Shown piece after piece: positions 3,119 to 35,767 of a stretch of DNA of 64,000 nt (positions within the stretch are counted from its first letter, which is position 1; every line of letters starts with the position of its first letter). The notes beneath the pieces were generated by a model. The model was not told where the DNA came from. It saw nothing but the letters and a program-made list of their open reading frames with translations, and searched no databases. Both the position numbers and the translations under genes were made by a program. The stretch is taken from positions 1 to 64,000 of IMG/VR virus record IMGVR_UViG_3300024514_000354; one strand, 5' to 3'. Source of the DNA: a virus.

Positions 3119-3145
3119 AAGCCGCTTGAAAAAGCGGCTTTTTTA
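3119..3145 (+). terminator. Intrinsic terminator after the Hsp20-like gene
   Basis: The 9-bp stem AAGCCGCTT/AAGCGGCTT (3119-3127 and 3132-3140) has a GAAA loop and is followed by a T-rich tract. It lies 5 nt after the Hsp20-like stop codon and ends the left plus-strand transcription unit. Confidence 0.88.
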
Positions 3146-3158
3146 TTCATAATAAAAT

Positions 3159-3539
3159 ATGCCACTTTATACATACGAGAACCCCGAAACAGGAGAGGTC
3201 GTAGACATCCTTCAGACAATGAACGAGGAGCACTCATATACCGACCAAAACGGGCTGAAGTGGAAAAGGGTATACCAGATACCCAATGCCTCCATAGACT
3301 CGCAAATAGACCCGAATAGCAGTACCGCGTTTATCGATGCCACAAGAAACAAGAAAGGGACTTATGGCGACCTGATAGACAAGAGCAGGGAATTGAGCGA
3401 AAAACGCGCTAAAACATACGGTGGCTCTGACCCAATAAAAGAAAAGTTTTTTAAGGACTATTCCGCCAACCGCAAAGGCGCAGTCCACCCAGATCAAAAA
3501 AAGACCTACGAGTCTAAGCGGGTCAAAGTAGAGTATTGA
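3159..3539 (+). CDS. Small protein with FmdB-like start, function unknown
   Basis: This 126-residue hydrophilic protein opens MPLYTYENPETGEVVDILQTM, which resembles the first beta hairpin of FmdB-family zinc ribbons (MPxYxYxC...). The zinc-binding cysteines are absent, and there is no cysteine anywhere. The second half is Lys/Arg-rich and probably helical. It follows the terminator at 3119-3145, so it needs its own promoter; an AT-rich stretch lies just before the ATG. It converges on the minus-strand glycan cluster, with a 17-nt overlap of the two 3' ends. No function can be assigned. Confidence 0.7.
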   Translation: MPLYTYENPETGEVVDILQTMNEEHSYTDQNGLKWKRVYQIPNASIDSQIDPNSSTAFIDATRNKKGTYGDLIDKSRELSEKRAKTYGGSDPIKEKFFKDYSANRKGAVHPDQKKTYESKRVKVEY

Positions 3540-15929: not shown

Positions 15930-18900
15930 TTACTTGTTATAGATCCTAGAGGGAGTTTTATAATTTGAATTATTTGTATATATCCCGATTTGCCCCCAGC
16001 CCCACAATCTATTTGATTTATCAATTGCATAACAGGCGCCATCAAATTCACTTGATATAACACCTATTTTATAAAAAGAATTGTTTCCACAAATTTGTCT
16101 TGGCGACAAAACAGGAGCGTTTGTATTTAACCCTAAAAGACCGCATACGTTATATCCCCACGCCCACGCTTTTCCATTGGTGTCTAAAAACATATATCCA
16201 CCATAGCTTCCTCCAAGAGCCACATCACAAAAATTATTATTTAAACTGCCAATTATTATTCTTTTAGGAGTCAAAATAGCTTCACTATTTGTAATGACAC
16301 TTTGGTCATATCCCCATCCCCATAATTTATTATCTTTATCTATTGCTATAGATAAAGCATTCATAGCAAATATTTTACAAAATGTTTTATTTCCATAAAC
16401 AGCAACTGGCGAGCTTCTACATACTGTAGAGCCATCTCCAACTGCTCCAAAGTAATTACCTCCCCAGCCCCAAGCTTTACCATTTTTGTCAATTGCGAGA
16501 ACGTGATCATATCCAGCACATATTTGACAAAATGTTTTGTTTCCGCAAACTGCGACAGGAGTACGCCTACTAGTTATAGAATTATTTCCAAGCTGCCCCC
16601 TAGTATTTATGCCCCACGCCCAAGCTTTATTATATTTATCTATAGCGAGTGCAAATGCATCGCCGCTGAATGTTGCATTGTTTCCTATAATTTTACAAAA
16701 AGTTTTACTGCCATATACCTGAACTGGAGTAGCCCGAGAAGTTATTGAATTATCTCCCAACTGCCCAAAGTCATTGGTCCCCCAAGCCCAAGCTTTACCA
16801 GCATTATCTATTATATAGTAACTTTCCAAAGAAAGACCAATTTCGCATACGGTTTTATTTCCATAAATATTAGTGAATCCAGAAAATTGAGCCAGACCAT
16901 TTTTATCTAATGTAAGAGAAGTGTATGCATTAGCCGCTATTTTACAGAATGTTCTAGCGCTATTAACTAAAATAGGAACACAATGGTAATGTTTATTACC
17001 GTTTCCTAAAGTTCCTGCTAAATTACTTCCCCAACTCCAAGCTGTATTGTTATTATCTATTCCAATAACAAAAGGACGGGGAATATCGTCCGCCGCAGTC
17101 CAACTCGCTGTAGTATATCCAATATAAATATTAGAAAATATTTTATTTCCACAAACTGCCACTGGCGTGCATCTATTTATTATCGAATTATCTCCTAACT
17201 GTCCATATCCATTCGCTCCCCATCCCCAAGCTTTGCCATTTTTATCAATTGCAAAAGAGGTTCCAATTCCGTTAAATTCATCTCTTGCAAATATTTTACA
17301 AAATGTTTTATTTCCATAAACAGCTATTGGACTATTAGAATTGACAAAATCTGGAATGCTACTTCCGCTTCCAATATTATTAGCACCGTTATATCCCCAG
17401 CCCCAAGCCTTTCCATATTTATCTATCGCAAGCGTATAATTACCAGCTGAGGATATTTCGGAGAATGTTTTATTACCGCCGACAGCAGTTGGATTTGGAT
17501 AACTCCACGCCCAAGCTTTACCATTTTTGTCGATAAAATCCGAAGCATTAGATATTTTACAGAATGTCTTGTCTTGATAAACTGCTACTGGAGTTGAAGA
17601 GCATACTGCCGGAGAATTACTTAATTGCCCCCAAGCCCAAAGCTTACCGTTTTTATCTAAGCCTACTTTTCTATCAAAAGTCCCAGATATTTCACAAAAT
17701 GTTTTATTGCCATATAAAGATGTTGGCAATGTGCGACTTGTTGTAGAGCCGTCTCCAATTTGACCATAATTGTTTGGCCCCCAACTCCAGACTTTACCTT
17801 TTTTGTCTATAGCGCTAAAGCCTCCTCCCGTAGATACTACTTTACAAAAAGTACGATTAGCGCCTATTATTTTTGTAGGAGTTGCCACTTGACCTTCTAA
17901 AGAATTAATTGTATTAACGCGGAAATTCTCTGACCAGTAAGTATTGACTCCCCAACCCCATAGTGTTCCATTTTTATCGATAGCAAAAGACTGTCCAGCG
18001 TCTGATGCAGCCGCTTGAAAAAATAACCTCTCAACTGCAAAAGACTCATTAACTTTTGTTACATCAAGAAGCGGCGGTCCATAAGACCCAACCATACCAA
18101 TATCTGCCCCTGCGCCGTTCTTAACCTCAACGCTCCAATTAGTTTCTACTAAAACCCTGTCTCCAATTCTTGCTCCAAGGTTATAAGACTCAAGCGTTAG
18201 GTTTTGTAACGACAACCCAAACTTTTTAACGTCTTCTAAATTAAAAAACTCAATCAACATTGATTTCTGAGTTCCACCTTCAGCGTGAAAAACCTTACTC
18301 AAATTTTCAGCTTGAAAATCATCAATCAGCGCCGACAAAGATAATGTGGCAACTGTTGGTCTTTGAATTTTTCTAATGTATGGATGATTATTGCCAAACC
18401 CATAAAGAGCCTTGCGTTCAAACTGAACAGAGAATTGCATACTCTGGAAGTTGTTGGCAATCGCGTCAAAGAAGCCAAAAGTAATTGGCGAAGTGCCGCC
18501 ACCTGACTGAAAGTCTGGGGTAATCTTACATTTACTGTAAGGACATCCGCCATTAAATACTTCCTTTGCTTTTGGCAAATACCTTTCAGTTCTTGAGTTA
18601 TTGACAAAGTTTAACGAGAAATTTTTATTTGCATCTTGAGCATTTTGGCCACTAACAAGGGTATTTACCGATGGTAAGTACTTCGAAGTCGCATAATCTT
18701 GCACATTAGCATTTGCGCCCACAAAAGAACACGAAACAGTCGCCAGCTGATTAACTGCCACACTGATTTCATAGTTAGTAATATAGGCGTTACCAATCGC
18801 GAGAATATTACTATTAACAATTCCTGTTTGTAAGTTCTGATCCATTCCATCATTCTGCGCGATACTGATATAGAAATTACGGTCGCCAGTAGACGAAAGA

Positions 18901-19205
18901 ATAGAATCGAATGGGTTACCAGTCGTACCTGTCGGTATATCCAGTCCAATATACTTATCATTCCAGCCATCATTCAAATAGTATTGAATATTTAAATTAA
19001 CATCCGGCGCAAGCTGAGTCTGCCTTGTAGCAAACGAATCGGAGCCGATTTGTTTCAGCGGAGTTCTTTCAATATTGAAAGAGAAGTCGTAGCCCTGAAT
19101 AAAATCAAGACGACTGATTCCGCTGCCCGTGTTCATCGCCTCCTCAAAAGCGCCAGAGGAACCAACAAACATCATTTGCATTTCATATGAGATTGGTCTG
19201 CCCAT
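15930..19205 (-). CDS. Tail-tube-fold protein fused to 14 RCC1 repeats
   Basis: This is a 1091-residue protein. The first ~395 residues resemble the window's main tail tube protein: both share a GNAYITNY segment followed by x-A-V and a T-V-S-x-x-x-x-G-x-N strand. From about 400 onward there are exactly 14 RCC1-type repeats, each with an I-D-K-x-G-K-x-W-x-W-G core and a following K-T-F-C-K-I strand. RCC1 repeats close into seven-bladed beta propellers, so 14 suggests two propellers. It probably sits in the tail tube or tip and displays propellers outward. It lies downstream of the gpM-like gene, sharing one base with it. Confidence 0.82.
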   Translation of the reverse strand: MGRPISYEMQMMFVGSSGAFEEAMNTGSGISRLDFIQGYDFSFNIERTPLKQIGSDSFATRQTQLAPDVNLNIQYYLNDGWNDKYIGLDIPTGTTGNPFDSILSSTGDRNFYISIAQNDGMDQNLQTGIVNSNILAIGNAYITNYEISVAVNQLATVSCSFVGANANVQDYATSKYLPSVNTLVSGQNAQDANKNFSLNFVNNSRTERYLPKAKEVFNGGCPYSKCKITPDFQSGGGTSPITFGFFDAIANNFQSMQFSVQFERKALYGFGNNHPYIRKIQRPTVATLSLSALIDDFQAENLSKVFHAEGGTQKSMLIEFFNLEDVKKFGLSLQNLTLESYNLGARIGDRVLVETNWSVEVKNGAGADIGMVGSYGPPLLDVTKVNESFAVERLFFQAAASDAGQSFAIDKNGTLWGWGVNTYWSENFRVNTINSLEGQVATPTKIIGANRTFCKVVSTGGGFSAIDKKGKVWSWGPNNYGQIGDGSTTSRTLPTSLYGNKTFCEISGTFDRKVGLDKNGKLWAWGQLSNSPAVCSSTPVAVYQDKTFCKISNASDFIDKNGKAWAWSYPNPTAVGGNKTFSEISSAGNYTLAIDKYGKAWGWGYNGANNIGSGSSIPDFVNSNSPIAVYGNKTFCKIFARDEFNGIGTSFAIDKNGKAWGWGANGYGQLGDNSIINRCTPVAVCGNKIFSNIYIGYTTASWTAADDIPRPFVIGIDNNNTAWSWGSNLAGTLGNGNKHYHCVPILVNSARTFCKIAANAYTSLTLDKNGLAQFSGFTNIYGNKTVCEIGLSLESYYIIDNAGKAWAWGTNDFGQLGDNSITSRATPVQVYGSKTFCKIIGNNATFSGDAFALAIDKYNKAWAWGINTRGQLGNNSITSRRTPVAVCGNKTFCQICAGYDHVLAIDKNGKAWGWGGNYFGAVGDGSTVCRSSPVAVYGNKTFCKIFAMNALSIAIDKDNKLWGWGYDQSVITNSEAILTPKRIIIGSLNNNFCDVALGGSYGGYMFLDTNGKAWAWGYNVCGLLGLNTNAPVLSPRQICGNNSFYKIGVISSEFDGACYAIDKSNRLWGWGQIGIYTNNSNYKTPSRIYNK

Positions 19206-20167
19206 TAGTAAACCCTCCTTATGCCGACAGGATCTTCCACCAGCGTTACTGAAATATCATTTACATTTTTATAAACAAAAGTGTGCTTCCACTCTGGTGC
19301 AAAAAAGTATTTGTTTTTATTATATATATTTGGTATTTTATACTGGAACTTTCTATAGCCCTGTCTTCCAGTTAGAAAGTGTAAAATCGATCTCGCCTCA
19401 AGATCAGTGATTCCCTTAAACTCCATCGTAAATTGTTTTAGAACATTTCCGTGCAGTCCAAAATCGCTTCTTTTTGTGAATGAATACGGCAACTCTGTCT
19501 TTAAAGTAGAAGTCTCTTTGCCCACCGTTGACGAGTAAGTTGGCTGAAAAAAGAACTCCTGCGTCCATTTTCCGTTGGTAATTTCTGAGCCATTGATGGA
19601 AGACTGGCTTGTGTGATCGCCAGTACAGTAATAAAAGCAATCATATAAGTTGCCGGTATTCTGCGGGAAAGATGCATTGCCAGTATGTCTGACAACATCG
19701 TATTTTGAATACGCAGTAGATGTGGCCCAACTTCCCTTTATGCCAGAGCCCGTAACAAACATTCCATTCCAATTTAAAAGAGACGAAACTTGATCCGTAG
19801 CCAATTCGACTTGTATTGTATAAAGATCATTGACTGTGAAATTAGTTTGAATTCCGCCGCAAAATAAATTAACTGGCTTGTATATCGAAGCTGGATCGGT
19901 AAAAGTGAAATATCCTGTGCCGCGAAGATTCTCAAAGAAACTGGCAATTCTTGTAGCTTCAGCCTCTTTTCTGTTTTCAAATGGCATTTGCACCGTCATC
20001 TGCAAATGATTCATTCCTCTTGGCATTGAATATAAATAATTATCGACAGTAACATAAGAGCTTAAATCCGCCGAAAAATTGACAGAGGTTCCATAAGACG
20101 GTTTAAAATCAAACGTTGTTTGAACCGTTCCTGTGACATTATAATCTCTGTCGTATAGAAATGACAT
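19205..20167 (-). CDS. Minor tail protein, duplicated lambda gpM-like fold with inserted sugar-binding-like module
   Basis: This is a 320-residue protein. Residues 210-320 (FTKRSDFGLHGNVLKQFTMEF, then EARSILHFLTGRQGYRKFQY and EWKHTFVYKNVNDISVTL) fit the minor tail protein M pattern of a tail-tip subunit. Residues 30-135 repeat the same layout (MTVQMPFENRKEAEATRIASFF, RGTGYFTFTDP, NDLYTIQVEL). Between them lies a Trp/Tyr/Cys-rich insert (about 143-180) with WATSTAYSKYDVVRHTGN and YDCFYYCTGDHTS, like carbohydrate-binding modules of the chitin-binding type. It is located after the tape measure and a tube-like gene, as expected for tail-tip genes. Confidence 0.65.
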   Translation of the reverse strand: MSFLYDRDYNVTGTVQTTFDFKPSYGTSVNFSADLSSYVTVDNYLYSMPRGMNHLQMTVQMPFENRKEAEATRIASFFENLRGTGYFTFTDPASIYKPVNLFCGGIQTNFTVNDLYTIQVELATDQVSSLLNWNGMFVTGSGIKGSWATSTAYSKYDVVRHTGNASFPQNTGNLYDCFYYCTGDHTSQSSINGSEITNGKWTQEFFFQPTYSSTVGKETSTLKTELPYSFTKRSDFGLHGNVLKQFTMEFKGITDLEARSILHFLTGRQGYRKFQYKIPNIYNKNKYFFAPEWKHTFVYKNVNDISVTLVEDPVGIRRVY

Positions 20168-20937
20168 TAGACAAATCCTTGATAAGTAAGCGTTAACGAA
20201 AGCTCGTCAGTTGCGGACGAATTGATCGTTTCACTTATTAACTCCATATTGTTCATTGAAAATGTCGCCAGAGACCCTATTGTTATATTAATATTCTGCT
20301 TGTTGGAATCAACAATATAATCTAAAACTCTTTTCGACTCATAATCATCAACGCCAAGCGTGAACTGGGCGGTTGCCCTAAATGGGCGCAATGTCACAAC
20401 ATCCATTGGAGTTGATCCAGTTGGATGATAAAAAGCCTGTCTTGGGCACTCAAGTGAGTATGTAAAAGCTTCGATTCTGTTTGTTCCAGTACCATCGCAT
20501 CGAATAGCTATATCTCTAGGACGGACGACTGATAGTGCGCCTGTTTGGCTAGCCCCCGAACTTGCGACACCAGTTCCTACATTACCAAAGATTGTGAAAT
20601 CGGCGCTTAGAGATGGAAAGTTTCCAACGGCGCAGGAAACAGAATAATTATTAAGATACGCGCGATTAAATGTAAAATTCTTATTATTGTAAAATAAACC
20701 GCCGCTGACCTGTCCAGCCCCCGTAAAATTTAAAAAGAAGTCTGCTGGCGAAAGGTACTTCTGAACACTCAGGTTTGACTGCGGCGCGTTATTGGTAAAA
20801 GTAGTAAATTTATTAGCGCCGATAACATTGATGTGCTCAATCGGCAAAGAATAGCCGAAATTAACATCGTTGACGCCAAATATTTTGACGCCGCTGATAT
20901 AAAGACTGTTTTCATAGCTTGATACTGATGATTTCAT
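20167..20937 (-). CDS. Tail tube-like protein, paralogue
   Basis: This is a 256-residue beta-rich protein with AYLNNYSVSCAVGNFPSLSADF (about 113-134), matching the AYITNYTVEAAVGGLPTVSV segment of the main tube protein at 34023. A RPRDIAIRCDG strand corresponds to its RPGDITVILPDG. It is probably another ring of the tail tube or the distal tail. It shares its first base with the last base of the tape measure gene, placing it where lambda-like phages carry tail-tip proteins. Confidence 0.65.
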   Translation of the reverse strand: MKSSVSSYENSLYISGVKIFGVNDVNFGYSLPIEHINVIGANKFTTFTNNAPQSNLSVQKYLSPADFFLNFTGAGQVSGGLFYNNKNFTFNRAYLNNYSVSCAVGNFPSLSADFTIFGNVGTGVASSGASQTGALSVVRPRDIAIRCDGTGTNRIEAFTYSLECPRQAFYHPTGSTPMDVVTLRPFRATAQFTLGVDDYESKRVLDYIVDSNKQNINITIGSLATFSMNNMELISETINSSATDELSLTLTYQGFV

Positions 20938-23900
20938 TATCTACTTCTTAATGATCCGCCTAGTCTCTTTTCCTCATTGATTGTTTGGATGACGACTTGT
21001 TTGATCTGCTCGCTCATCTTCTTGTAGTCAATGCCGCCCTGTTTGGTATCACCCTGAGTCTGGGTATCTGATGTTCCGCCAGTTACATTGATATTGATGC
21101 TAACATTTGTAGCTCCTGCGGCTTTAGAGTCAGAACTTGTCGCCGCTTTCTCAGCGAAGCTTGGCTCTGCGGTGGAAACTTGACCGCCATCAGCAAATCT
21201 TGGAGCGCGGCCTTGATTGATCGAATCAAAGAATTGTTTACCGTATTTCTTGGTTGCTTGGCGATTCATTACATACTCGCCACCCATAAGAAGTGCGGGA
21301 ATATCGTCTGTTGGACCGCCAGCGTTGTAACGCTTGATCATTCCACCATAAGCCTTTGTTGGGCCAAAGCTATAATTGAATGCTGGTGGAGATTGAAAAC
21401 TAAAAGGCTTCGCATTTGTCAAAAATTGAGTTTTGCCAGAAACTTGGTCCATTAAACCTAATCCAGTAGCGGAACCCTTTCCAGCCGCTGCCGCACCACT
21501 AAATAGACTTCCTAATTTTCCAACCCCAGCATTTATTCCATAACTTAAAGCAGCGGAGGCTACTGTTCCAACAAGCTGTTTCTGAAATGCTTTTCTTTCA
21601 GCAGTTCTGTAAGCTTCTCTTTCGGCCATTATATTCATAGCCTGCTCTTGAGCGCTGCGAATCTCCTGATTTATGGTGTCATCCTCTCTCATCAAAGCAT
21701 AAGCAGAAAGTCTTGAGCTTTGATCTTCAAGGTTGGCAAAAGCGGTTGTTGCGCCGCCAGCTAATACATCTGTTGCGCCGCTTGTTGTTGTTTGTTTAGC
21801 AAAAGCGGTTAAATCCTTATAGCCTGAAATTTCAGTTTGGCCACGAATACCGGGTAGGAAAATGCCACCAGCTGCAAACTTAGGAGCTTCTCCTGAATTT
21901 AGCTTTTGTAGATTAGATGCGCCATACTTTTTAACAGAAGACTTGCGAATTACATATTCACCCTCACTCAACATTGCTGGCACATCATCCTTATATCCGC
22001 TACCGCCAGTCACAAGACCACCAGTTGCGTAACCCTTTACATAGCCACCCTTTGCCGCGCCTGTTGGCAGAATAGAAGCTACAATCTGTCTTGAAGCACT
22101 TTGTAAAAATGCGCTCTGAAGGCTCTTTAGGAAGTTAAGGGCAACATTTCTTAATGCGCCACCAAGATCATCTGCCTGATTAAGAGCAGCCTGCATCGCT
22201 TCCGCCATTCCATCCGCAAACAGTTTTGGTGTCTGATTACCAATAATTTGCTGGAATGTTTCGGCCTGATCGAGAAGAACGCCTCGTTGAATTTGTAAAT
22301 TTTGCTGAATGGAGTTGTCTCTCCCACTAAGAATATTAGTACTCTCTCTTAGATCAACTTCTGTTCTTCCAGCCATTCTTCTTTCAAAAACCGAAGCTCT
22401 TGCCTGCTGCTCAAAACTAGACTGTACTCCAGTTTGTGTTAAAGCTCGGCCTTGCACTATTGTTTTTGTTATTTCCTGAATGTTTGCAGTTCCAGCGGAA
22501 GTAATTTGATTTTCAATCGCTTTTGTCAGATTGATTTCTGAAAGCGCTGCGGAGGCTTTTCTTCTAGCTTCAATTAACTGTTCAGCTTCAAGATTTAACT
22601 GCTCTTCTAATCGTATGGCTTGCTGAGTTACACTGATCTTTTTATTCTGCTCTCTTAAAAGCTCAGTCTTTCTTTGGATATCTCTGCTTTCACCTTTCCA
22701 ATTTTGCTGTATAAGAGCAATTTGAACTTGTAATTCATCATCTTTATCAGACTCGGATTTTGTCAATTTTGATTGAGCACTTCTTAATTTAGCTGCAACA
22801 GTTTCAGTTTGGATACTGCCTTTGTAGGCTTGATTATAGGCGTCGATCAAGTCTGTTTCTGCATTTAATAAATTATTATCTGTATTAAGCTTTAGTTCTG
22901 CATTTTTAGCGTCAGTTTTTAACTGAAATACTCTTTTATCAGTTTCTTCACTAAGATTTGAAGCTGCAATTGCCGCTGCCTGATCGATTCCAGTTAATTC
23001 ACGAATTGATTTTGCGTGACCGTTGGTAATTAGGACTCTTTGTAAATCAGCTTTTTTCTTTTCTGGAAGCAGGGCTATTTCTTCCGCATTAGCAATTTCC
23101 AAGTCTTGTATGGAAGTAATTAATTTTTCTCTTTGAATATTTAACTGTTCTTCAACTGCCGCAGCTTCATCAGATGTAATATCTTGAGTTTCGCTTCCGT
23201 CATTGCGGCTATTCAAGTACGCCAGTCTTGACCTATTCTGTTTGTATGCGCTTTGTAATTTTCTAAGTTCTGTATTAGCTTCTGAATTTGTTGCGGCGAA
23301 ATCAATCTGCGTATTTGTTAATATTCTAGTCTGATCGGCATTCGCTTTAGTTTCATAAGCTGATCTTACTAAAGCTAAAAACTGCTCTTTTGAACCCAGT
23401 ATTAAGTTATTTAATTCTGGAGGAACGCCAACAAGTCCTTCTGTAAATTTTGACCAAACTGAACCAAAAACGTCATCAATTTTTACTGTACCATCTTTTA
23501 AAGCTTGCTCGTTAGTTTTAAGCGCATTGGCATATCCATCAATTAAGCCTTGTAATTTACTGGTATCTAAATTGCCTAAAAAGTCTTGAACCTGTTGAGT
23601 TCCTCCAAGCACAGATTCTTTAGCCCCAGCGCCTAAATTTTTTCTTAAATCAAGCGCGATCTGCGCCACAGTTTTATTATATTCCGCTTCTGCTTTTTCT
23701 TTATCTAAGGCTGCTTTTTGGGATATTGTGTAAGATTCTGTTCTAAACTGTTTCTCTCTTTCTAGTGCAGCAGACAAGCCTTCAATTCTTAAAGACTCTT
23801 CATTATATTTTTCATTTATTTTTAACTGTGTTTGAAAAATAGACTCAAGCGCTTTTTGTCTAGACAAAAGTAGTTCATTATCCCTAGTCAAAAGCGCCTG

Positions 23901-26900
23901 TTGAACTTTATCTAAGACTTGACCTTCTTGTCTAATTGAAAGTCTTTGTTTCTCATTTTTAATTTGATCGTTTAAAAGATCAATGACATTTTCTTGCAAT
24001 AAATTTTCATTTACTGCTGTGCGCTCAACACCAGGTTGAACCCCTCCCATAAAATCTTGACTAGCTAATCCTTGTTCAGTTGTCTTTGTGATCACCCCTG
24101 CAAAAATTTTATTAATTGCGTCCGTATCAACTCCAGTGATTTTGCCCTCTTGATCTCTTGTTATATTTCCAGTAGCAGACAGAACAGCGCTTATTTGTTT
24201 TATCAAGTCCTTAGAAATATCTGGAAATCCAACAGATTGTGTACTAGTTATTGCTTTTTCTACAAGATCTGAAACTTTTACAGCCTCTTGTTTTTGTTTA
24301 CCTTCAGCACGACCTTCTGTTAATTTTGCTAAAATATTTTCTGGCGTGAGTTTTTGACCAGTTCTTTCGGCCTCTCTAGCCAGTTTTGTTAAAGCCTCGC
24401 TAGCTTTTTCGGCGGGAGTTTTTTGAGCTTCAAAAATTCTACTGATCAAAGGAGCGGCGGAAGCTAAAGCCGTCAACGAACCAAGAAATATTCTAAGAGG
24501 TATGTTTACGCTTCCCGCTAAAGATGCGAATGTTGCAAGTCCAGAAAGACCGGCGTTTACACCTTCTAAAGCATTTGCCGCGTTACTATTTTCTTCTGTG
24601 AACGCCTGAACTGCTGATGTAGCTCCAACTATTGCGGTCTGAAGAACAAGGAATTTGCCAATATCAATTTTTTTTGTTTCATCATTTGCTTCCTGTTTCT
24701 GATCTCCTTGTTTTTGAGTTTGAACCCCGTAATCAAAACCTTCACCACCTGTGTACCGTTCTGCACTTATTGGATTTGGAGACTTGCCTAAAATTTCTTT
24801 AATTTGTTTTGTACTAAGATCTGCAAAATTTGGTACAAACCCTCTACTTCCCATAGCCGCGCGCATTCCTCTTTCTCTAAAATCATTTGGAATCTTGCCA
24901 TTTGGCTCGTCTCTGGTGTTGATAACGGCGAGACCATTTGGGTTTTTTGAGTTCTTTAATCTTTCATCCTGCGTCACGCGCACGCGCGCGGGCGGCACGC
25001 CAGCACCAACTTCTCTATTAACAGCTTCTTTTAATGGGTCATTATCAGCAAAGTTCGGAACATATCCCAGCGAAGCCTTTGTTCCTTTTACTCGCTGTGG
25101 GGCCAAAAGCTTTGCCGCATACTGATCAGGAGTAAACGTATTTATTTTCGGCATCAGCGATTTTACTGCTTGCAAGTTCGCTGGATCATTATCTACAAAA
25201 TCAATATCGCCTGTAGCAATTTTCGGCGCACGCTCTTTAAAAAACAACGCTTTTTTCTGGGCAGCAGATGGATCGATTTTAGGTTTTACTCTAGTATTTC
25301 TTTCACCCTCTGGCTTTTTCATCTCTTCTGCAAACTTGGGGTTATCGACCTTGTACTGCTCTTCAGAGAACTCTCTGCCCAAAGCGAAAACACCATTAAC
25401 ATTAAAACCTAAACCCTTCAAAGAGGATTCAATACCAGGTTGATAATCATTCCATCTTGCCGTTGCAAGTTTGAAAGGCTTCTTCGATTGCAGAAGTTTT
25501 TGACCAAACGGAGTCAAAAGCTTCATTTGAGCATCGCGAGCTTGGCGCTCCTGCTCAGTCATTTGGTCTTCTGGAATATTTTTAATTAATGCTTTTTGAG
25601 CATTAAAATCAGTTGCCTTGCCAAGCTGTTGTCCAAAAATAGTATAATCGTAATCAACAAAAAGATCTGCAAAGTTTGGAATGTAGCCCGCTGCGGCATT
25701 CAAAGATCTTGGCCCAACCTTCTTAATCGAGCGAGTTTTGCCGCCAACCGCTCTTACTGCTGGCCAAGGAGTTGGATCAAAAGGCGTTGGATTATTAAAT
25801 TTTGCAAGAGCTTCTGGAGTGTTGGACTCTGGTCCAACGCCACCAGTTGTTGCTTTTTGCAAGGCAATGAAGTCATCAGCTAAAGCTGGATTTGCCAGTA
25901 CTGTTGAAGTGAAAGCCTCTCTCTTGCCCGGCAATCTTGAAATACCAATCTGTGCATTTGGTCCATAAACTCTTCTAGCTGAAGTTAGAATTCTCTTCTT
26001 TAATTCATCCCCTAAACCCTTTGGAGCAGATGGCTTGGCTTCAAGATTTACATTAGATGCAGCAAGAAATGCGTCAGCGGTATCAAGGTCATAGAACTGT
26101 CCAGATGGGGCCAAGATAGACTGCTGTTTCTTTTGTGCAAAATTTGGAATATAGCCTTCTGCTGCGGCAGTCTTGACAGTTTTGTATGGTTTATAAAGTT
26201 GAGCGGCAACAATTTGATCAGCTAGTTTTCTTCCTGTTGAACCGGGGCTTCCTGAAATCTTTGCATCTACAAATTGCTCGCCACCGCCAATACCAAATAA
26301 TTCTTTAAGAAATGGATTAACTGGGAAATCTAACCTGTTATTTGAATCTTCTTTTTGTGCTTTTTCTATTCTTTGTCCAACTTGAGTATCTAAAGCTGCC
26401 CTAATAGAAGACTCAAATATACCGCCTCCTAAAGTAGAGATTGCCGAGACGGCGCCTTCTGATTCTGTAAAGGATGTGCGGATAAAATTTTCATCATAAT
26501 TAGTTTTAACTGAACGGCCAGGCATCTTTTTCGCATACTCATCTGAATATTTTGTAGCCCATTTTTTCGCTATCTCTATGCCAGCTTTTTCAACATCAGC
26601 TTCAATCAAGGTTTGTGTTCCGCTTTTCTTCAAAGCCTGTCCTTCAAACGCCTGCTCATTCAAGCCGTAAGTATTGTACCTTACATTAGTTATAAGACTA
26701 TTTTCTGGAGGAAGGTATACGTCTTCTTTTGTTTGGAAGCCCCAAGGATTTTTCTTGAGATAATTAGTCATTGTTTCCTGATTAGCTTGGTCAGGAACAA
26801 TCATGCCTGCTATACCCTGAGCGCTAACAAGCGCTCTTGGTCCCGTATATGTTTTTCTATCAACCTTTCCGCCCTTTATTGTCGCTGGCTTTTTATCGGC

Positions 26901-29900
26901 AAAATTTGGAACATATCCCTTGGCGCCGCGAATCATCTCAAAGTTTTTAGCAGAGCCTTTTACTTTTGAAATAAAATCAAACTGATTAAGCGGAGCAAAC
27001 ATCGATCCTGCAATTTGCTTCTTGCTTCTGAGATCGCCTTGTTTTGGACCCTCTGCGATTCTTCCAGTTCTTCTGGACAGAATGTCCATATTGCCAGTGT
27101 ACAAATAAGAGATCTTTCCTCCAGATGCATTTACCGCATCAGAAATTTGCTGGAAGTTTTTAGAAACGCCGCCATCTTTTGTTCTTGCCGCGCCTGAAAG
27201 AATATCGATCTCACTGGCGTCTGTTAACTGGGCAATATTGGTTATAAATGAACCAAGAGACTCCCCGTAAGTTGACTTACCAGATCCCGCTGGTCCAACT
27301 ATTAAATTCTTCTTGACGCGAGAAGCTAAAATAGCCTTTAGTAGGTTATTTTTATCTGCATCAACTCTGTCAGCGTCATAAACGTAGCGCGCAAAATTTG
27401 GAATGTAGCCCCCCGATGCATTTTGACCCGTTGGAGAAATGATATGCTTTCCAATGAATGACGAAATACTACTTGTTGACGAACCTAATTTTATGTCTCC
27501 AAATTTAGATTTGAACCCAAATCTGCTTTTAAAAGCGCCAGATTGTTCTGCTGGCAAATCCCAAGTTTTGCTATTTCTTCCCTCTATCGTTCCAGTAATT
27601 TTTTTGAACAAAATATCCTCTAATATATTTCCAGACCTAAATGCTGCTGGCCCCTGAACTTGAAGTTCTGTTTTGACGGCAGCTTTAAGATTATTGTCAA
27701 CACTACCTTTTGTTTCTGGCAAAATAGACTGGATAATATCCTCAATATCCTTATCTATTTTAGCTTTTGGATTAGCTTGAATTTTGTTTTTAGTTTCACG
27801 AATTTTTTGAACTAAATCATCTCTTTGCAAGCTTTTATTAATTTGTACAAATTCAATTGATCCTTGGTCAGGAACAATTTTAGCATTTTCTGCGATTGGT
27901 CCTAGTTTTTCAGTTAATTTCTGCTGCGCTGAAGATTGTAATTTAGAAAATCTTCCTACCGGATCAATTGATGCATCCAAAGTTAAATATGCAGACCTGC
28001 GTATTCCATCAAGATCTACATAGTCTATAGGCTCTTGATCTTTTTTAACTTTAGCCTTTGCTTGATCAAAAACATTGAATTTTTTAGCCGCAAAATTTGG
28101 TACAAACCCATTAGCAGGCACAAATCCACCAGAAGCTGTAATCTTTTTAGCTCCGGGCGGTAGACCATACTCCTTCGCCATATCCTGATTAAAGATAGCC
28201 GTACCGCTACCACCAGCATAATTAGGCACAATATATTCGCTGGTATTTGCTACCATCGTGCCACGCTTACCGCCGCCAAACGAGAAGTTTGGAATCTCTA
28301 CGACTTTAGAAGAAGGGCTGGCCCCACCAACTCCACGACGCACATCTTTCGCCTCTTCTGCTGGCAGATAACCTCCCGCCGCTCTCTTTTTAATCGTTCC
28401 AGATGTAGCGCTAAGTCCAGCGGCTTGTAGTGCAGGGGCAACATTTGCCGCGATGCTTTGTACTTGCTGAAGCGCCGCTAACTGCCTATTGTAAACAGAA
28501 AGTAAATACTCTTCTTGCTTTCTGCGATCTCCGCTTAGAGACAGGATTGTCGCCATTACTTGCTGATCCTTGATCAGCGTATTAACAACAGCCTGTTCCA
28601 AAGCTTGGCGCTCCCTGACTTCCTTGTTGATTCCCAAGATAGTTTTTAGTGACTCAGTGCCGAATTGGGCAATGTCTTTTGTCAGCTTAACGAATATCGC
28701 AAGAAGAAGAGGAATGCCGATCTTGAAAAATACTCCACTAAGTCCAGAAATTAAACCTTTAGCAATAGTGCCGCCAATTCCTTCGGAATCGATAACGTCA
28801 TTAATCCCAGTAAGAATGTTGTCAAAAAAGTTTAAAAGCGACTTAAGGCTGTCAGTAACGCCAATTCTGCCAAGAGTATCAGCAAGCTGAGCGGCTGAAT
28901 TTGTAACTCTTGTGATAACTGCATCTAGAGTTTGATTGAGTTCAATCTGACGCTGGTATGCCTCGCTTTGCGCGCCCGCAGAAACATCTCTCGCCTCTCT
29001 AAACTTGCTCGCTGTTGAGCCCAAGTCGTCAACAAGCGCTGTCAAAACGTTGATGTTGTACTTGCTAGCAATCGCCTCAAGAACTTCGATTCTCTTGGTT
29101 TCGCTAAGGGTATTAATTTTCCCAGCCAATTCCTCAAGAAGACTTACAACCGGCCTCAGTCTACCTTCGGCATCAAATGAATAGATACCAATGCTTTGCA
29201 ATGCTTTGATAGTTTCATCTGATCTGATTCTGGTGAAAATTGTCTTGAATGCGTTACCAATTACCGCGCCACCACGCGCAGTTCTTTCTTGTGCAATTGT
29301 GACGATGGCATTTAATTCGTCAAAGCTAACGCCAACTTCTTGAGCAATCGAGCCAGCACGGGACAAGCCTTTAGCCAAGTCTTCAGCAGAGACTGCGAAT
29401 TTAGTATCTACGGCAACCAGCTTATTCAGAATCTCGCTAGTTGTAATTCCAGTTGCTCCGAAAGAGTTTGCCGCAGCCGTGAGTACATCCACGGCTTCAG
29501 CAGCGCTTAAAGTTGTGAAACGAGTAAGAGTAAGGGCGTCCTGAGTTCTTTTTAGCGTTTCTTCAAGACCCAAGCCCTGTCTAGAGAACTCTAGTGCCGC
29601 CTCGGAGGCTGTCTGGAAAGATTGCGAGGTAGTTTTGGCAATCTCAAAAAGCGCTCTGGAAAATGGTTCAAGTTCCTGAGTAGTTTTTCCGCTAATAATG
29701 GCAATATTAGCCAAGCTTTTTTCAACTTCAATTGTTGTTTTAACAAGCGTAGCAAAAGCATTTTGTACGCCATTGATGATACCTACAGAAGCGCCGAATG
29801 CGATAACACGCGCATTTGATGCGGCAATTGACTTTTCGAACTCTGTTGCCAGACCGCTTACTCTACCAAGAGGCTGGGCTAGTCTTTTAAAGGAACCAGG

Positions 29901-30005
29901 ATCAACAGACGCAGAAAGAGTCAGCGGTCCAGCTTTTTTGGCCGCCGCCTCGATAGAGGCTTCTAAACCCGACTGGACTACAGGTACTGTGATTCCTTTT
30001 GCCAT
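20937..30005 (-). CDS. Tape measure protein with inserted enzyme-like cassettes
   Basis: This is a 3022-residue protein. Residues ~60-300 match the TP901-type tape measure core (VEKSLANIAIISGKTTQEL, GNAFKTIFTRIRSDE), and a hydrophobic stretch lies at about 405-435. Seven copies of G-[YF]-[IV]-P-N-F-A start at residues 633, 866, 1030, 1284, 1440, 1647 and 1722. They delimit two PD-(D/E)XK-like segments, a P-loop segment (GPAGSGKST, 904-912), an unknown segment and an HAD-like segment (DYD 1451-1453, VDND 1604-1607). A long coiled-coil region follows, then two copies of a D-D-[VI]-P-A-x-L-x-x-G-E-Y-V unit near the C-terminus. It sets tail length and may travel with DNA into the cell. AAAGG lies just before the ATG. 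Confidence 0.92.
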   Translation of the reverse strand: MAKGITVPVVQSGLEASIEAAAKKAGPLTLSASVDPGSFKRLAQPLGRVSGLATEFEKSIAASNARVIAFGASVGIINGVQNAFATLVKTTIEVEKSLANIAIISGKTTQELEPFSRALFEIAKTTSQSFQTASEAALEFSRQGLGLEETLKRTQDALTLTRFTTLSAAEAVDVLTAAANSFGATGITTSEILNKLVAVDTKFAVSAEDLAKGLSRAGSIAQEVGVSFDELNAIVTIAQERTARGGAVIGNAFKTIFTRIRSDETIKALQSIGIYSFDAEGRLRPVVSLLEELAGKINTLSETKRIEVLEAIASKYNINVLTALVDDLGSTASKFREARDVSAGAQSEAYQRQIELNQTLDAVITRVTNSAAQLADTLGRIGVTDSLKSLLNFFDNILTGINDVIDSEGIGGTIAKGLISGLSGVFFKIGIPLLLAIFVKLTKDIAQFGTESLKTILGINKEVRERQALEQAVVNTLIKDQQVMATILSLSGDRRKQEEYLLSVYNRQLAALQQVQSIAANVAPALQAAGLSATSGTIKKRAAGGYLPAEEAKDVRRGVGGASPSSKVVEIPNFSFGGGKRGTMVANTSEYIVPNYAGGSGTAIFNQDMAKEYGLPPGAKKITASGGFVPANGFVPNFAAKKFNVFDQAKAKVKKDQEPIDYVDLDGIRRSAYLTLDASIDPVGRFSKLQSSAQQKLTEKLGPIAENAKIVPDQGSIEFVQINKSLQRDDLVQKIRETKNKIQANPKAKIDKDIEDIIQSILPETKGSVDNNLKAAVKTELQVQGPAAFRSGNILEDILFKKITGTIEGRNSKTWDLPAEQSGAFKSRFGFKSKFGDIKLGSSTSSISSFIGKHIISPTGQNASGGYIPNFARYVYDADRVDADKNNLLKAILASRVKKNLIVGPAGSGKSTYGESLGSFITNIAQLTDASEIDILSGAARTKDGGVSKNFQQISDAVNASGGKISYLYTGNMDILSRRTGRIAEGPKQGDLRSKKQIAGSMFAPLNQFDFISKVKGSAKNFEMIRGAKGYVPNFADKKPATIKGGKVDRKTYTGPRALVSAQGIAGMIVPDQANQETMTNYLKKNPWGFQTKEDVYLPPENSLITNVRYNTYGLNEQAFEGQALKKSGTQTLIEADVEKAGIEIAKKWATKYSDEYAKKMPGRSVKTNYDENFIRTSFTESEGAVSAISTLGGGIFESSIRAALDTQVGQRIEKAQKEDSNNRLDFPVNPFLKELFGIGGGEQFVDAKISGSPGSTGRKLADQIVAAQLYKPYKTVKTAAAEGYIPNFAQKKQQSILAPSGQFYDLDTADAFLAASNVNLEAKPSAPKGLGDELKKRILTSARRVYGPNAQIGISRLPGKREAFTSTVLANPALADDFIALQKATTGGVGPESNTPEALAKFNNPTPFDPTPWPAVRAVGGKTRSIKKVGPRSLNAAAGYIPNFADLFVDYDYTIFGQQLGKATDFNAQKALIKNIPEDQMTEQERQARDAQMKLLTPFGQKLLQSKKPFKLATARWNDYQPGIESSLKGLGFNVNGVFALGREFSEEQYKVDNPKFAEEMKKPEGERNTRVKPKIDPSAAQKKALFFKERAPKIATGDIDFVDNDPANLQAVKSLMPKINTFTPDQYAAKLLAPQRVKGTKASLGYVPNFADNDPLKEAVNREVGAGVPPARVRVTQDERLKNSKNPNGLAVINTRDEPNGKIPNDFRERGMRAAMGSRGFVPNFADLSTKQIKEILGKSPNPISAERYTGGEGFDYGVQTQKQGDQKQEANDETKKIDIGKFLVLQTAIVGATSAVQAFTEENSNAANALEGVNAGLSGLATFASLAGSVNIPLRIFLGSLTALASAAPLISRIFEAQKTPAEKASEALTKLAREAERTGQKLTPENILAKLTEGRAEGKQKQEAVKVSDLVEKAITSTQSVGFPDISKDLIKQISAVLSATGNITRDQEGKITGVDTDAINKIFAGVITKTTEQGLASQDFMGGVQPGVERTAVNENLLQENVIDLLNDQIKNEKQRLSIRQEGQVLDKVQQALLTRDNELLLSRQKALESIFQTQLKINEKYNEESLRIEGLSAALEREKQFRTESYTISQKAALDKEKAEAEYNKTVAQIALDLRKNLGAGAKESVLGGTQQVQDFLGNLDTSKLQGLIDGYANALKTNEQALKDGTVKIDDVFGSVWSKFTEGLVGVPPELNNLILGSKEQFLALVRSAYETKANADQTRILTNTQIDFAATNSEANTELRKLQSAYKQNRSRLAYLNSRNDGSETQDITSDEAAAVEEQLNIQREKLITSIQDLEIANAEEIALLPEKKKADLQRVLITNGHAKSIRELTGIDQAAAIAASNLSEETDKRVFQLKTDAKNAELKLNTDNNLLNAETDLIDAYNQAYKGSIQTETVAAKLRSAQSKLTKSESDKDDELQVQIALIQQNWKGESRDIQRKTELLREQNKKISVTQQAIRLEEQLNLEAEQLIEARRKASAALSEINLTKAIENQITSAGTANIQEITKTIVQGRALTQTGVQSSFEQQARASVFERRMAGRTEVDLRESTNILSGRDNSIQQNLQIQRGVLLDQAETFQQIIGNQTPKLFADGMAEAMQAALNQADDLGGALRNVALNFLKSLQSAFLQSASRQIVASILPTGAAKGGYVKGYATGGLVTGGSGYKDDVPAMLSEGEYVIRKSSVKKYGASNLQKLNSGEAPKFAAGGIFLPGIRGQTEISGYKDLTAFAKQTTTSGATDVLAGGATTAFANLEDQSSRLSAYALMREDDTINQEIRSAQEQAMNIMAEREAYRTAERKAFQKQLVGTVASAALSYGINAGVGKLGSLFSGAAAAGKGSATGLGLMDQVSGKTQFLTNAKPFSFQSPPAFNYSFGPTKAYGGMIKRYNAGGPTDDIPALLMGGEYVMNRQATKKYGKQFFDSINQGRAPRFADGGQVSTAEPSFAEKAATSSDSKAAGATNVSININVTGGTSDTQTQGDTKQGGIDYKKMSEQIKQVVIQTINEEKRLGGSLRSR

Positions 30006-32088: not shown

Positions 32089-32538
32089 ATGGCATCTTAC
32101 CTCTCAGACGCGCAGAAAAACTTTATCAATGAAGTGATTGATGATGTGTTTGATACCTTCTCTAGGCAGATAACCGTATACTCTAACCCCAGAGAGACTG
32201 TGATCTCCACTTCAGCTAGTTATAATTATTTTTACGATAGAGACGTTCCAGCTGTAGAAAACAAGGAGTTCACAACTGTTTCCAATACATTTCAGGCTAA
32301 GATTAAGTACTTAGATCAGGCCAAAGCCCCAGTACCCGGAGCCGATACTCAGCAAAAAATAGACTATCCTGCTGGCAGCGTTAAAATCAAAGTGCCAGCT
32401 TCTGCCTACACTGTTCTAAAAGAAGCTCGTCGTGTCGAATTTGATGGTCGTAGATATGCAATCTCTTCTGATTCAAAGCCTTATGGAATGTTTGGGCCAA
32501 GATATTATTCATTCATCCTATCCCCAATTAACGAGTAA
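32089..32538 (+). CDS. Head-tail connector/stopper candidate
   Basis: This 149-residue protein has a helical start (LSDAQKNFINEVIDDVFDTF), then RQITVYSNPRETVISTS and a beta-rich body ending GPRYYSFILSP. The layout of a short helix followed by a small barrel-like beta domain with TVYSNPRE is common in head-closure or stopper proteins. It precedes two more neck-region genes and the tail tube gene. The function comes from gene order and general fold appearance. Confidence 0.5.
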   Translation: MASYLSDAQKNFINEVIDDVFDTFSRQITVYSNPRETVISTSASYNYFYDRDVPAVENKEFTTVSNTFQAKIKYLDQAKAPVPGADTQQKIDYPAGSVKIKVPASAYTVLKEARRVEFDGRRYAISSDSKPYGMFGPRYYSFILSPINE

Positions 32539-32540
32539 TT

Positions 32541-33149
32541 ATGGCGAAGATCCCAGCAAATGTTGCAAAAAAAATCAATAAAGATGTCGCGCCAATATTA
32601 AAAAATAGCGTAGAAAGGCGTGTTTTCTTAGCTTTCGAAAGGATAAAAAGAGAAACGATCAATGAATTTCTTAGACACCCTGTTACAAAAGAAATCGAAG
32701 CTGGTCCAACGGCTCAAAACATTAGCGGAACTCTCGATGGCTATGGTAATCTTTTTTCTTATATTGGTTTTTATAACGGAGACGATCCGATATCGCCAAT
32801 AACAGAGGCGTTTCAGAAAAGCACCATTACCTTTTCTAGATTGATTGATGGCGGGGTAATTTGGAACGTATTTATTCCAGCAAAAGAAGACATATGGGAT
32901 GTCTCGCCAATGCCTTGGGCTCCGGGGCGCAGTTGGGCGAAAGGCATCGAAACAGGAATTTCCGGTATTGGCCAGTACTTTTACACCCTGCGAGAAGATC
33001 TTCCGACATCCAGATCTGACACCGCTATCCAAACAAGTAAAAATATTAGAAGAAAAACTAGATTTAAAAATGTAAAATACATTAGCGCTATATTGGCTAA
33101 CTTCGAAAAAAAGATAAACCTATTAGATGAAACCGCAATATCAACATAA
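32541..33149 (+). CDS. Neck/tail-completion candidate protein
   Basis: This 202-residue protein has a basic helical N-terminus (NKDVAPILKNSVERRVFLAFERIKRETINEFL, about 13-44), then a mixed region with GYGNLFSYIGFYNGDDP and WDVSPMPWAPGRSWAKGIE. Helix-rich N-termini followed by a small beta domain typify HK97 gp10-like neck proteins, which join connector and tail. The gene starts 2 nt after the connector candidate, and its end overlaps the next gene by 23 nt. Confidence 0.45.
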   Translation: MAKIPANVAKKINKDVAPILKNSVERRVFLAFERIKRETINEFLRHPVTKEIEAGPTAQNISGTLDGYGNLFSYIGFYNGDDPISPITEAFQKSTITFSRLIDGGVIWNVFIPAKEDIWDVSPMPWAPGRSWAKGIETGISGIGQYFYTLREDLPTSRSDTAIQTSKNIRRKTRFKNVKYISAILANFEKKINLLDETAIST

Positions 33150-33963
33150 CGTAACGACATCTTTTGCTCTATGGCTTGATCACTATCTTTTAGAGAAGGG
33201 TGAGGCTTATAGCAATCAGACTGGCACTTTCACTTATTATGCAGACCCAAGAATATCAACCACTTACAAAGCTTTCGGTACTCCTTACAAACAGTTTGTA
33301 TACGACTCCACAATTACTGGAGCAAGTATTCCTAGCGGCGTTCATGTTTCGGGAGTTTTTAAGGGTCGCAACGATGGGGTTATTATAGACTATATCAATG
33401 GTAGAGCGCTAATTAGCGGCGTTTCTACAGGAGTTGCGGTCACAGGATCTTTTGCGGTTAAGGATTTCAATATCTATCTTACTAACGAAAACGAGGACGA
33501 CCTGATTCTAGATAACAACCTCGACGCGAATAAAAAATTTCCTTGGACTGGCAAATATATACCGCCATATGATCAAGTTGCTCCAGCTATCTTTATTGCA
33601 AATGACTCTACTTATAATTCTCCGTTTTCGTTTGGTGGAGAAGATGAAAGCCGCTCATTTGTGAAGTGCGTCGTTTTTACCGATAACCCCTATCAACTTG
33701 ACGGCGTTCTGTCTATTTTTGCCGACGCTAAATCTAGTAGCTTTAAATACAAGGACTTTACTGGATACCCGCTCACAGAATATGGAGATGTCAAAAACGG
33801 AACATACTCTTATGATTCTTCTGTTATAAATCAGAATGACTTTTTTATTGATGAAGTAGTTTGCTCTAAGCTCAAAGACTCTCGCGCTAGAGGAGGCAAC
33901 GCTAAGCCTTATATCGGCTTTATTGATTTTGAAGTCGTCAAGTACCGCCATCCAAGAGCTTAA
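33127..33963 (+). CDS. Virion structural protein, tail terminator position
   Basis: This 278-residue, beta-rich, Tyr/Asp-rich protein (FALWLDHYLLEKG at the start; GVHVSGVFKGRNDGVIIDYINGRALISG in the middle; PYIGFIDFEVVKYRHPRA at the end) lies between the neck candidates and the main tail tube gene, where tail terminator proteins are usually encoded. The family is not recognised. The ATG lies inside the end of the previous gene. Confidence 0.5.
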   Translation: MKPQYQHNVTTSFALWLDHYLLEKGEAYSNQTGTFTYYADPRISTTYKAFGTPYKQFVYDSTITGASIPSGVHVSGVFKGRNDGVIIDYINGRALISGVSTGVAVTGSFAVKDFNIYLTNENEDDLILDNNLDANKKFPWTGKYIPPYDQVAPAIFIANDSTYNSPFSFGGEDESRSFVKCVVFTDNPYQLDGVLSIFADAKSSSFKYKDFTGYPLTEYGDVKNGTYSYDSSVINQNDFFIDEVVCSKLKDSRARGGNAKPYIGFIDFEVVKYRHPRA

Positions 33964-33987
33964 TTATTCCATTTTTAGATAAAAAAA

Positions 33988-33993
33988 TGTAAA
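33988..33993 (+). promoter_or_regulatory. TGTAAA motif before the tail tube gene
   Basis: AAATGTAAAGTATT lies 29 nt upstream of the tail tube ATG in a 59-nt non-coding gap. This is the longest spacing in the motif set. Confidence 0.42.
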
Positions 33994-34022
33994 GTATTTC
34001 AAACCTTCTTAACTAACAACTT

Positions 34023-35177
34023 ATGGCACGCAACAGAGTAATTTATCAATCAGAAGCTCTTTATGTCGCAGACGGTACAGCTGTTCCGACAGCCACCCAC
34101 GCATCCAGCATCATTAGACAGCTTCACCGCGTTCAGTCAGCCAACTATGGCTTTACTATCAATCGCCAAGACGTTAACCAATTTGGTAACCTTGCTCGTA
34201 TTGACCAAATCTCAATCGAGGCTCCTACTGTAAACCTTGACTTCTCTTACTACCTTACTACTGGTAATAACGAAACTGCCCTTGGATTTAACGTAGGAAC
34301 AAGCTCTGCTGCTGGATCATTCATCAGTGGACTCGTCGATTCCAGCAACGCAACCAATAACATTGGTATCGTATCTGGCCGTAACTTCCATATCCTCACC
34401 GTAGCAGAGGGTAACGACGCCAACGGTTCCGCTACCGGAATTTATCAAAATTCTGGAGTTGCCAGAACAATCGGTATCGGCAACGCTTATATCACAAACT
34501 ACACTGTAGAAGCCGCAGTAGGTGGTCTTCCCACTGTTTCGGTAACCTGTGAAGGTCTTAACGTTAACGTTATCAGCGGCTCTTCTGGCGTTGTCCCCGG
34601 TATCTTCGTTGAGGCTGGAACTGGATCTGCAAGCCTTTTCCAACTTCCTGCCCCAGTTACTGGCAGCGTAGGCGTTTCCGCGCTTCGCCCCGGCGACATC
34701 ACAGTAATCCTGCCTGATGGCGTAGTCGCTGAACTGCCCACTGGTGTTGAAGGTTCTCCATTCAACAATACTGCTGCTCACATCCAGAACCTCTCAATTG
34801 AGATTCCAATTGGTCGTACCACCCTTGAGCGTCTTGGTAGCCGCTTCGGCTTCACCAAGGTTATTGACTTCCCTGTAGAGGTAACTGTCAATATGAGCGC
34901 AATTGTTGCTGACCTCAAGTCCAGCGGTGCAATCGAGACCCTGCTTAACGCCGATACCACAAAGAACCTTGCCTTCGCGTTCAAGCTGCCCGGTGCTAAT
35001 GATCGCGTTATCTATGAGATCAGAGGCGCCAAGCTGGTAAGCGAGAACTTCTCAAGCGCAATTGGCGACAATAAGAGCGTTGACCTGAGCTTCACTACTC
35101 AGATCGGTAGCCCACAGGACACCACAAACGGCGTCTTCGTATGGGTACAGAACACTGCTTATACTCCCAGTATCTAA
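34023..35177 (+). CDS. Major tail tube protein
   Basis: This 384-residue beta-rich protein with balanced codon use is typical of abundant virion subunits. IRQLHRVQSANYGFTINRQDVNQFGNLARI (about 30-59) and AYITNYTVEAAVGGLPTVSVTCEGLNVNV (about 157-185) recur in altered form in the N-terminal part of the gene at 15930 and in the gene at 20167. Its solo position after neck genes, its own motif and its strong terminator suggest high-level expression. The call is by fold appearance and gene order. Confidence 0.7.
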   Translation: MARNRVIYQSEALYVADGTAVPTATHASSIIRQLHRVQSANYGFTINRQDVNQFGNLARIDQISIEAPTVNLDFSYYLTTGNNETALGFNVGTSSAAGSFISGLVDSSNATNNIGIVSGRNFHILTVAEGNDANGSATGIYQNSGVARTIGIGNAYITNYTVEAAVGGLPTVSVTCEGLNVNVISGSSGVVPGIFVEAGTGSASLFQLPAPVTGSVGVSALRPGDITVILPDGVVAELPTGVEGSPFNNTAAHIQNLSIEIPIGRTTLERLGSRFGFTKVIDFPVEVTVNMSAIVADLKSSGAIETLLNADTTKNLAFAFKLPGANDRVIYEIRGAKLVSENFSSAIGDNKSVDLSFTTQIGSPQDTTNGVFVWVQNTAYTPSI

Positions 35178-35227: not shown

Positions 35228-35767
35228 TTAGTAGTAAAAGTCTTCTTTTACCACTTCTGGCTTTTTTCTTAAAGCCGCAATTCCTTGACCTTCTGTCAGC
35301 ATCTCAACCAGATCGTAATACTTCAGAGCCATCTGATAATCAGAGCGATTGAAGTCATGGATGAATACCAGCACATCCTGATCAATAATATCCCAAAGAT
35401 ACTTGGCGCAATACTTACGCGCGCGACCATCAATCAGCGCCTTGGTGAACTTTAGCTTCTTGGTTGCAGGCAAATGAATGTAGTCCTTGAACTGTTCGTA
35501 TCTGCAAGGCTTTGGATCTGGAGAGTGAGCGGCTTGATAGATCAGTTCGATATTCTGGATATCGTAAGCATTAACGATCTTTTGGATATTTTTAATCCAG
35601 TCGATGTCGTGCTCGATGGAAATTACCTTCTTCACCAATCCAGAAAAATAAACAGTGCTATTGCCACTACCAAACTCAAGCAACGTGTCATTTTTATTTA
35701 GATACTTTTCAATAAACTTGTACTCATGTTCGTGCATGAGCGGGCGGAAGGAACTAAATTTATTCAT
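35228..35767 (-). CDS. SAM-dependent methyltransferase
   Basis: This is a 179-residue class I methyltransferase. DTLLEFGSGNSTVYFSGLV (about 29-47) is the SAM-binding motif I, VISIEHDIDWI the acidic motif II and VLVFIHDFNRSDY a motif IV-like strand. The substrate is unknown. It is the last gene of the second fibre/modification block, overlapping the glycosyltransferase fusion by 4 nt, so a sugar or protein of that block is the likely target. Confidence 0.8.
   Translation of the reverse strand: MNKFSSFRPLMHEHEYKFIEKYLNKNDTLLEFGSGNSTVYFSGLVKKVISIEHDIDWIKNIQKIVNAYDIQNIELIYQAAHSPDPKPCRYEQFKDYIHLPATKKLKFTKALIDGRARKYCAKYLWDIIDQDVLVFIHDFNRSDYQMALKYYDLVEMLTEGQGIAALRKKPEVVKEDFYY

Follow-up and report, generated by a model that had tools for sequence, protein, structure and literature searches.

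Phages and conjugative elements encode polyvalent proteins, which are very large, contain several enzyme domains and are predicted to be delivered together with the DNA (Iyer et al. 2017, PMC5512222). An enzyme motif is also present in the tape measure protein gp17 of mycobacteriophage TM4, where deletion shortens the tail by about as much as the length predicts (PMC1796659). Tape-measure-like carriers with a reconfigurable functional domain, Sle1 and Tme, are known from contractile injection systems (PMC13277306). In the MuF polymorphic toxins of temperate phages, a structural phage protein carries variable toxin domains that are swapped between phages (PMC5576092). The present analysis concerns a 64,000-nucleotide stretch of viral DNA (positions 1 to 64,000 of IMG/VR record IMGVR_UViG_3300024514_000354, called the window below), in which the tape measure protein is divided into cassettes by a short motif, GYIPNFA and its close variants.

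This tape measure resembles the polyvalent proteins in its size, in having multiple enzyme domains and in the overlapping types of these domains (GNAT, kinases, nucleases). Polyvalent proteins, however, are not described as tape measures, a term that is absent from PMC5512222, and neither their hallmark domains nor a resident peptidase gave a Pfam match in the window's tape measure or in the family tally of 118 cassettes. TM4 gp17 likewise has a catalytic segment embedded within a tape measure, but this is a single peptidoglycan hydrolase motif for wall entry and not an exchangeable array of intracellular-type domains with a boundary motif. Sle1 and Tme are bacterial and have one C-terminal functional domain and a coiled-coil N-terminus; the accessible text of that report mentions neither an array nor a junction motif. 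The MuF protein belongs to the head and packaging apparatus and bears its toxin at the C-terminus, whereas the GYIPNFA protein is a tail protein with an internal insert of multiple cassettes. No tape-measure-embedded array with a common junction motif is described in the accessible parts of the open literature or of the reports on these four systems.

The open reading frame (ORF) at 20937-30005 on the minus strand encodes 3022 residues, and its product is a tape measure protein of the PhageMin_Tail type. Residues 123-312 match PF10145 (PhageMin_Tail) with E=1.1e-27, the sole Pfam match above the curated cut-off in the whole protein, and many PHROG tape-measure families match as well (best 4.9e-48). 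The tail-gene neighbourhood was confirmed, with a phrog_14 minor tail protein directly downstream and neighbours that are conserved across loci. The sequence G[YF][IV]PNFA occurs exactly seven times, at residues 633, 866, 1030, 1284, 1440, 1647 and 1722, where 1.4e-5 copies would be expected from composition. These are the copies listed in the first-pass annotation, which had overlooked two degenerate ones upstream of motif 1 (EIPNFS at 571 and YIVPNYA at 592). That annotation had also restricted the motif to the tape measure within the window; no other match was indeed found in six frames of the window or, at the DNA level, elsewhere in the 69.7-kb parent record. The gene is organized as follows.

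20937-30005, minus strand: tape measure gene, 3022 residues (ORF, PF10145, PHROG)
28131-30005, minus strand: N-terminal arm, residues 1-625; contains PhageMin_Tail and, ahead of motif 1, a Gly-rich stretch in which 571 and 592 mark degenerate PN[FY] copies
28089-28109, minus strand: motif 1, GFVPNFA, residues 633-639 (pattern match)
27411-28088, minus strand: cassette 1, residues 640-865; PD-(D/E)XK-like by eye
27390-27410, minus strand: motif 2, GYIPNFA, residues 866-872 (pattern match)
26919-27389, minus strand: cassette 2, residues 873-1029; P-loop kinase-like (Walker A, Foldseek)
26898-26918, minus strand: motif 3, GYVPNFA, residues 1030-1036 (pattern match)
26157-26897, minus strand: cassette 3, residues 1037-1283; PD-(D/E)XK nuclease-like (conserved residues)
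26136-26156, minus strand: motif 4, GYIPNFA, residues 1284-1290 (pattern match)
25689-26135, minus strand: cassette 4, residues 1291-1439; three relatives have copies of about 80% identity in different contexts
25668-25688, minus strand: motif 5, GYIPNFA, residues 1440-1446 (pattern match)
25068-25667, minus strand: cassette 5, residues 1447-1646; HAD phosphatase-like (conserved motifs)
25047-25067, minus strand: motif 6, GYVPNFA, residues 1647-1653 (pattern match)
24843-25046, minus strand: terminal module, residues 1654-1721; small alpha/beta module, cluster 0
24822-24842, minus strand: motif 7, GFVPNFA, residues 1722-1728 (pattern match)
20940-24821, minus strand: C-terminal arm, residues 1729-3022; conserved with relatives after about residue 1780

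Relatives were gathered by means of the motif itself, in scans of IMG/VR that used two longer degenerate variants of the pattern. The two scans yielded at least 164 non-redundant tape measures, in which 427 segments run from motif to motif (104 clusters, 58 of them singletons). Throughout these proteins, conserved arms enclose a variable centre of motif-bounded, exchangeable cassettes. The N-terminal arm of the window's protein aligns over its full length with the relatives, at 28-90% identity, and the alignment stops at motif 1. The C-terminal arm begins with a short variable stretch, is conserved with the relatives from residue 1780 or so, and ends in Gly-rich tape-measure repeats. In 70 reasonably long proteins the arm preceding the first motif has a length of 609 +/- 37 residues, and the insert ranges from 90 to 3249. 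Some modules have preferred places in the array. Clusters 2 and 10 are small modules found in first position only, while clusters 0 and 4 are alternatives that mostly close the array; the terminal module, with 73 copies in cluster 0, is last in most arrays. The program hhalign relates cluster 0 to 4 and cluster 2 to 10, to which the shared motif ends contribute.

The boundaries of homology coincide with the motif. BLAST blocks begin just before and stop just after motifs, and cassette alignments span from motif to motif. As an unmasked motif could itself lengthen alignments, the motif was masked; 49.3% of the homology-block ends then lay within 20 residues of a motif, compared to a mean of 24.5% (standard deviation 1.5, maximum 29.4) in 200 circular shifts. 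The same breaks are seen in the DNA. When the P-loop cassette is compared to relative L084, nucleotide identity rises from 0.22 to 0.77 at the left motif and falls from 0.82 to 0.33 at the right one; for the terminal module and relative L012 it rises from 0.36 to 0.81 on entry and falls from 0.90 to 0.23 at the last motif. At motif 1 the tape measure has an extra short GGFVPAN stretch, which makes the ungapped nucleotide comparison there uninformative. Copies of cassette 4 with about 80% identity are present in relatives L094, L194 and L203, and its order changes: it precedes the HAD cassette in the window and follows it in L094. Three pairs of clusters (1/3, 1/7 and 3/7) are found in either order. 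The masked block ends, the sharp drops in identity and the order swaps together therefore demonstrate real shuffling in close relatives. The proposal that the motif separates segments of the protein is thus borne out, the segments behaving as independent, exchangeable cassettes.

Several cassettes of disparate, apparently catalytic types are combined within the one polypeptide. Cassette 2, which has 20 other cluster members, contains the Walker A sequence GPAGSGKST, with G42, G44 and K45 invariant, and the best Foldseek matches of its model are adenylate kinases (E=0.011, probability 0.99); it looks like a P-loop kinase. Cassette 3 has 64 other cluster members. Across 35 diverse relatives (16-44% identity) the residues G-x-[FY]E, D and [DE]-x-K are kept, with E169, D197 and K220 invariant, and by this pattern the cassette looks like a PD-(D/E)XK nuclease. 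Its profile found no relevant match among PDB sequences, and no PD-(D/E)XK protein was among the listed Foldseek matches of its model, which is of moderate quality. Cassette 5 has D12-x-D14-x-T16, T76, K146 and D166 in the order typical of HAD proteins, in an alignment with seven relatives, and looks like a HAD phosphatase; HAD proteins are also its top Foldseek matches, at E values (0.13-0.4) that are not significant. Cassette 1 is PD-(D/E)XK-like by eye (GNILED..WDLP..FGDIKLG) and has only one relative, in L113. Cassettes of the relatives contain Pfam domains of the SNase (E=2.3e-9), GNAT (7.1e-8) and cytidylyltransferase-related (6.2e-8) families, as well as HExxH and protein-kinase-like segments recognized by eye. 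The first-pass annotation had proposed that the segments are different enzymes rather than coiled coil, and had called for structure prediction. This is supported for several segments, which look like different alpha/beta enzymes and not like coiled coil or rods; cassettes 2, 3 and 5 have conserved catalytic residues.

The motif itself is short. Across the family (about 580 copies collected with a loose pattern) its consensus has sharp edges and reads A-[AS]-x-G-[FY]-[IV]-P-N-F-A; the A and A/S at positions -3 and -2 belong to it. The collecting pattern required G, P and N, and their near-invariance is partly due to this construction; A/S at -2, F and the final A were left free. The residue that follows was said to be mostly Asp or another polar one. 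For Asp this holds only loosely: the residue is A, R, D, Q, D, D and D after motifs 1-7, and family-wide it is D in 29%, E in 11% and K in 10%. In both structure models every motif lies in a stretch of predicted local distance difference test score (pLDDT) below 50, between domains of pLDDT 70-90, and is thus predicted to be a disordered element at the junctions.

The 402 strict copies of the motif are encoded by 272 distinct DNA 21-mers with free third positions, and the motif is therefore conserved as protein and not as DNA. The breaks of exchange do fall at the motif, as would be expected if it were retained only as a shared DNA stretch on which cassettes recombine, but the diversity of codons points to selection on the protein and makes this explanation highly improbable. 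An origin as a DNA repeat, or by recombination alone, was rejected for the same diversity.

Segments of the type GGxxPxFAxGG are frequent in tape measures. The motifs could accordingly be ordinary tape-measure repeats, that is, glycine-rich linkers between rods without special function, and related segments do occur at the C-terminus of the tape measure (GEAPKFAAGG and GRAPRFADGG). However, the domains between the motifs are diverse alpha/beta folds with catalytic motifs instead of rods, and the G, P and N are nearly invariant, if partly by construction, among the roughly 580 copies. This explanation is improbable.

The motif marks a large family of uncultured phages. In IMG/VR, a degenerate pattern of 23 bases, written for G[YF]IPNFA[DE], matched at least 119 stretches. 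Among the matches listed there, all 130 are in frame within ORFs of at least 348 residues, and 125 of these have evidence of being in a tape measure that is independent of the motif (arm profiles, or the terminal module with the motif masked). The same pattern matched 28 stretches in 257 Gb of cellular genomes, where roughly 22 would be expected from its degeneracy alone. Only six of 29 cellular matches are in such ORFs, in metagenome-assembled genomes (MAGs) labelled Flavobacteriales, Flavobacteriaceae, Verrucomicrobiales and Woesebacteria. The motif is thus not scattered at random through unrelated proteins. In INPHARED there was no match to the cassette region, the terminal module or one neighbouring tail gene, and the N-terminal arm and the terminase matched isolates at only about 23-28% identity. 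The profile of cassette 3, run against 250 genomes from the family of one Flavobacteriaceae MAG, found that MAG alone and no cellular source there.

These results make it very probable that the tape measure also carries a modular payload of enzymes, in motif-bounded, exchangeable cassettes, a degree of confidence that does not extend to cleavage. The conserved N- and C-terminal arms would serve for tail building and length measuring. The variable array between them, with cassettes of about 70-400 residues and usually closed by the small conserved terminal module, would be the payload, and each junction would be furnished with the 10-residue motif as a short disordered recognition element. The enzymes would be carried along by the tail and pass into the host with the DNA during infection, as tape measures come into contact with the inner membrane of the host, or enter it, at injection (PMC13190303). 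Once inside, they might counter defence or begin takeover. This suggests that the phage tail would also be a reloadable carrier bringing enzymes to the host cell.

The motif is most likely a processing or a docking site. The near-invariance of G, P and N (in part by construction), which the remainder of the predicted linker does not share, favours a recognized element rather than a passive linker; a simple flexible linker, kept for modular compatibility, is ranked third among the possible roles and seems rather unlikely. Site-specific processing is ranked first, as a serious possibility that nevertheless falls short of even odds: every GYIPNFA would be cut by a phage or host protease, either within the virion or as the phage enters, and separate enzymes would be set free. 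The motif is short, sharply bounded, disordered and nearly invariant at every junction, and has variable flanks. Tape measures are commonly proteolysed, and an internal segment may be lost in this way (PMC1796659). The separation of polyvalent proteins after delivery is ascribed to resident metallopeptidases (PMC5512222), and here the GYIPNFA tape measures differ, having a uniform junction and HExxH in only 4 of 164 proteins. Because resident metallopeptidases are nearly absent from the family, cutting by an external protease, which would fill their role at the common site, was placed first. Processing by a resident enzyme was rejected for most members; the window's tape measure has no HExxH. 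On the other side, the residue after the motif is variable, no protease of such specificity was found, nor does any conserved neighbour of the tape measure look like one. The window has one protease-like gene, at 53018-54640 on the minus strand, which by eye is a candidate prohead protease fused to a coiled-coil scaffold and has no Pfam or PHROG match; the usual substrates of such an enzyme, the major capsid and scaffold proteins, are without the motif in the window.

Docking is ranked second, as a somewhat weaker possibility. A tail assembly chaperone, the tube protein or a host translocation factor would bind the motifs and keep the cassettes competent for loading or threading. Such a role would suit a short, aromatic motif with Pro and Asn that is repeated many times along a disordered path, and degenerate copies are present in the N-terminal arm too. 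Conserved tail genes flank the tape measure, with homologues of the 256-aa neighbour at 94 of 163 loci and of the 329-aa neighbour at 82 of 163. However, the literature that was found names no chaperone binding a motif of this kind.

Several points weigh against the tape measure being a carrier of enzymes. The proposed delivery into the host is carried over from tape-measure biology, and neither a partner protease nor a dock was identified. With a mean pLDDT of about 60 the fold models are of moderate quality, no Foldseek match falls below E 1e-3, and cassettes 1 and 4 have no confident assignment. Finally, as the relatives were collected by the motif, the sample gives no share of tape measures that possess it.

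Other genes of the window have features of their own. Two large proteins, encoded at 15930-19205 and 38095-40299 on the minus strand, match PHROG families annotated as "regulator of chromosome condensation" (RCC1-like); the gene of the former is the second one downstream of the tape measure, and homologues of it are present at 79 of 163 loci. Four tail- or neck-like genes at 32089-35177 on the plus strand, opposite to the other structural genes, have homologues near the tape measure in 35-82 relatives. The products of 20167-20937 (minus), 34023-35177 (plus) and 62591-63403 (minus) are similar to each other and tail tube-like by eye. Situated amid structural genes, a minus-strand cluster at 35228-38092 comprises a weak methyltransferase-like match, a GT8 and GT9 glycosyltransferase fusion and a sulfotransferase. 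A collagen-like tail fibre of 1925 residues (44031-49808, minus strand) is encoded in a stretch of higher G+C content (0.47-0.49, compared to about 0.40) that has many long antisense ORFs.

If the carrier proposal is right, the ruler protein of the tail is a general delivery vehicle that is rapidly re-armed, and the motif provides a natural rule for the insertion of cargo into a phage tail. The motif would then also be a simple sequence tag that exposes about 100 clusters of cassettes, mostly unrecognized by Pfam, many of which are plausibly early anti-defence or takeover enzymes. It is even conceivable, if doubtful, that in a widespread group of uncultured siphophage-like viruses the tape measure is a cleavable effector polyprotein, from which a dedicated protease that reads GYIPNFA would release a shuffled set of nucleases, kinases and phosphatases into the host along with the first DNA. 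The finding makes an old question open to test, namely whether domains inserted into a tape measure count towards the length of the tail, thread through it unfolded, or are removed.

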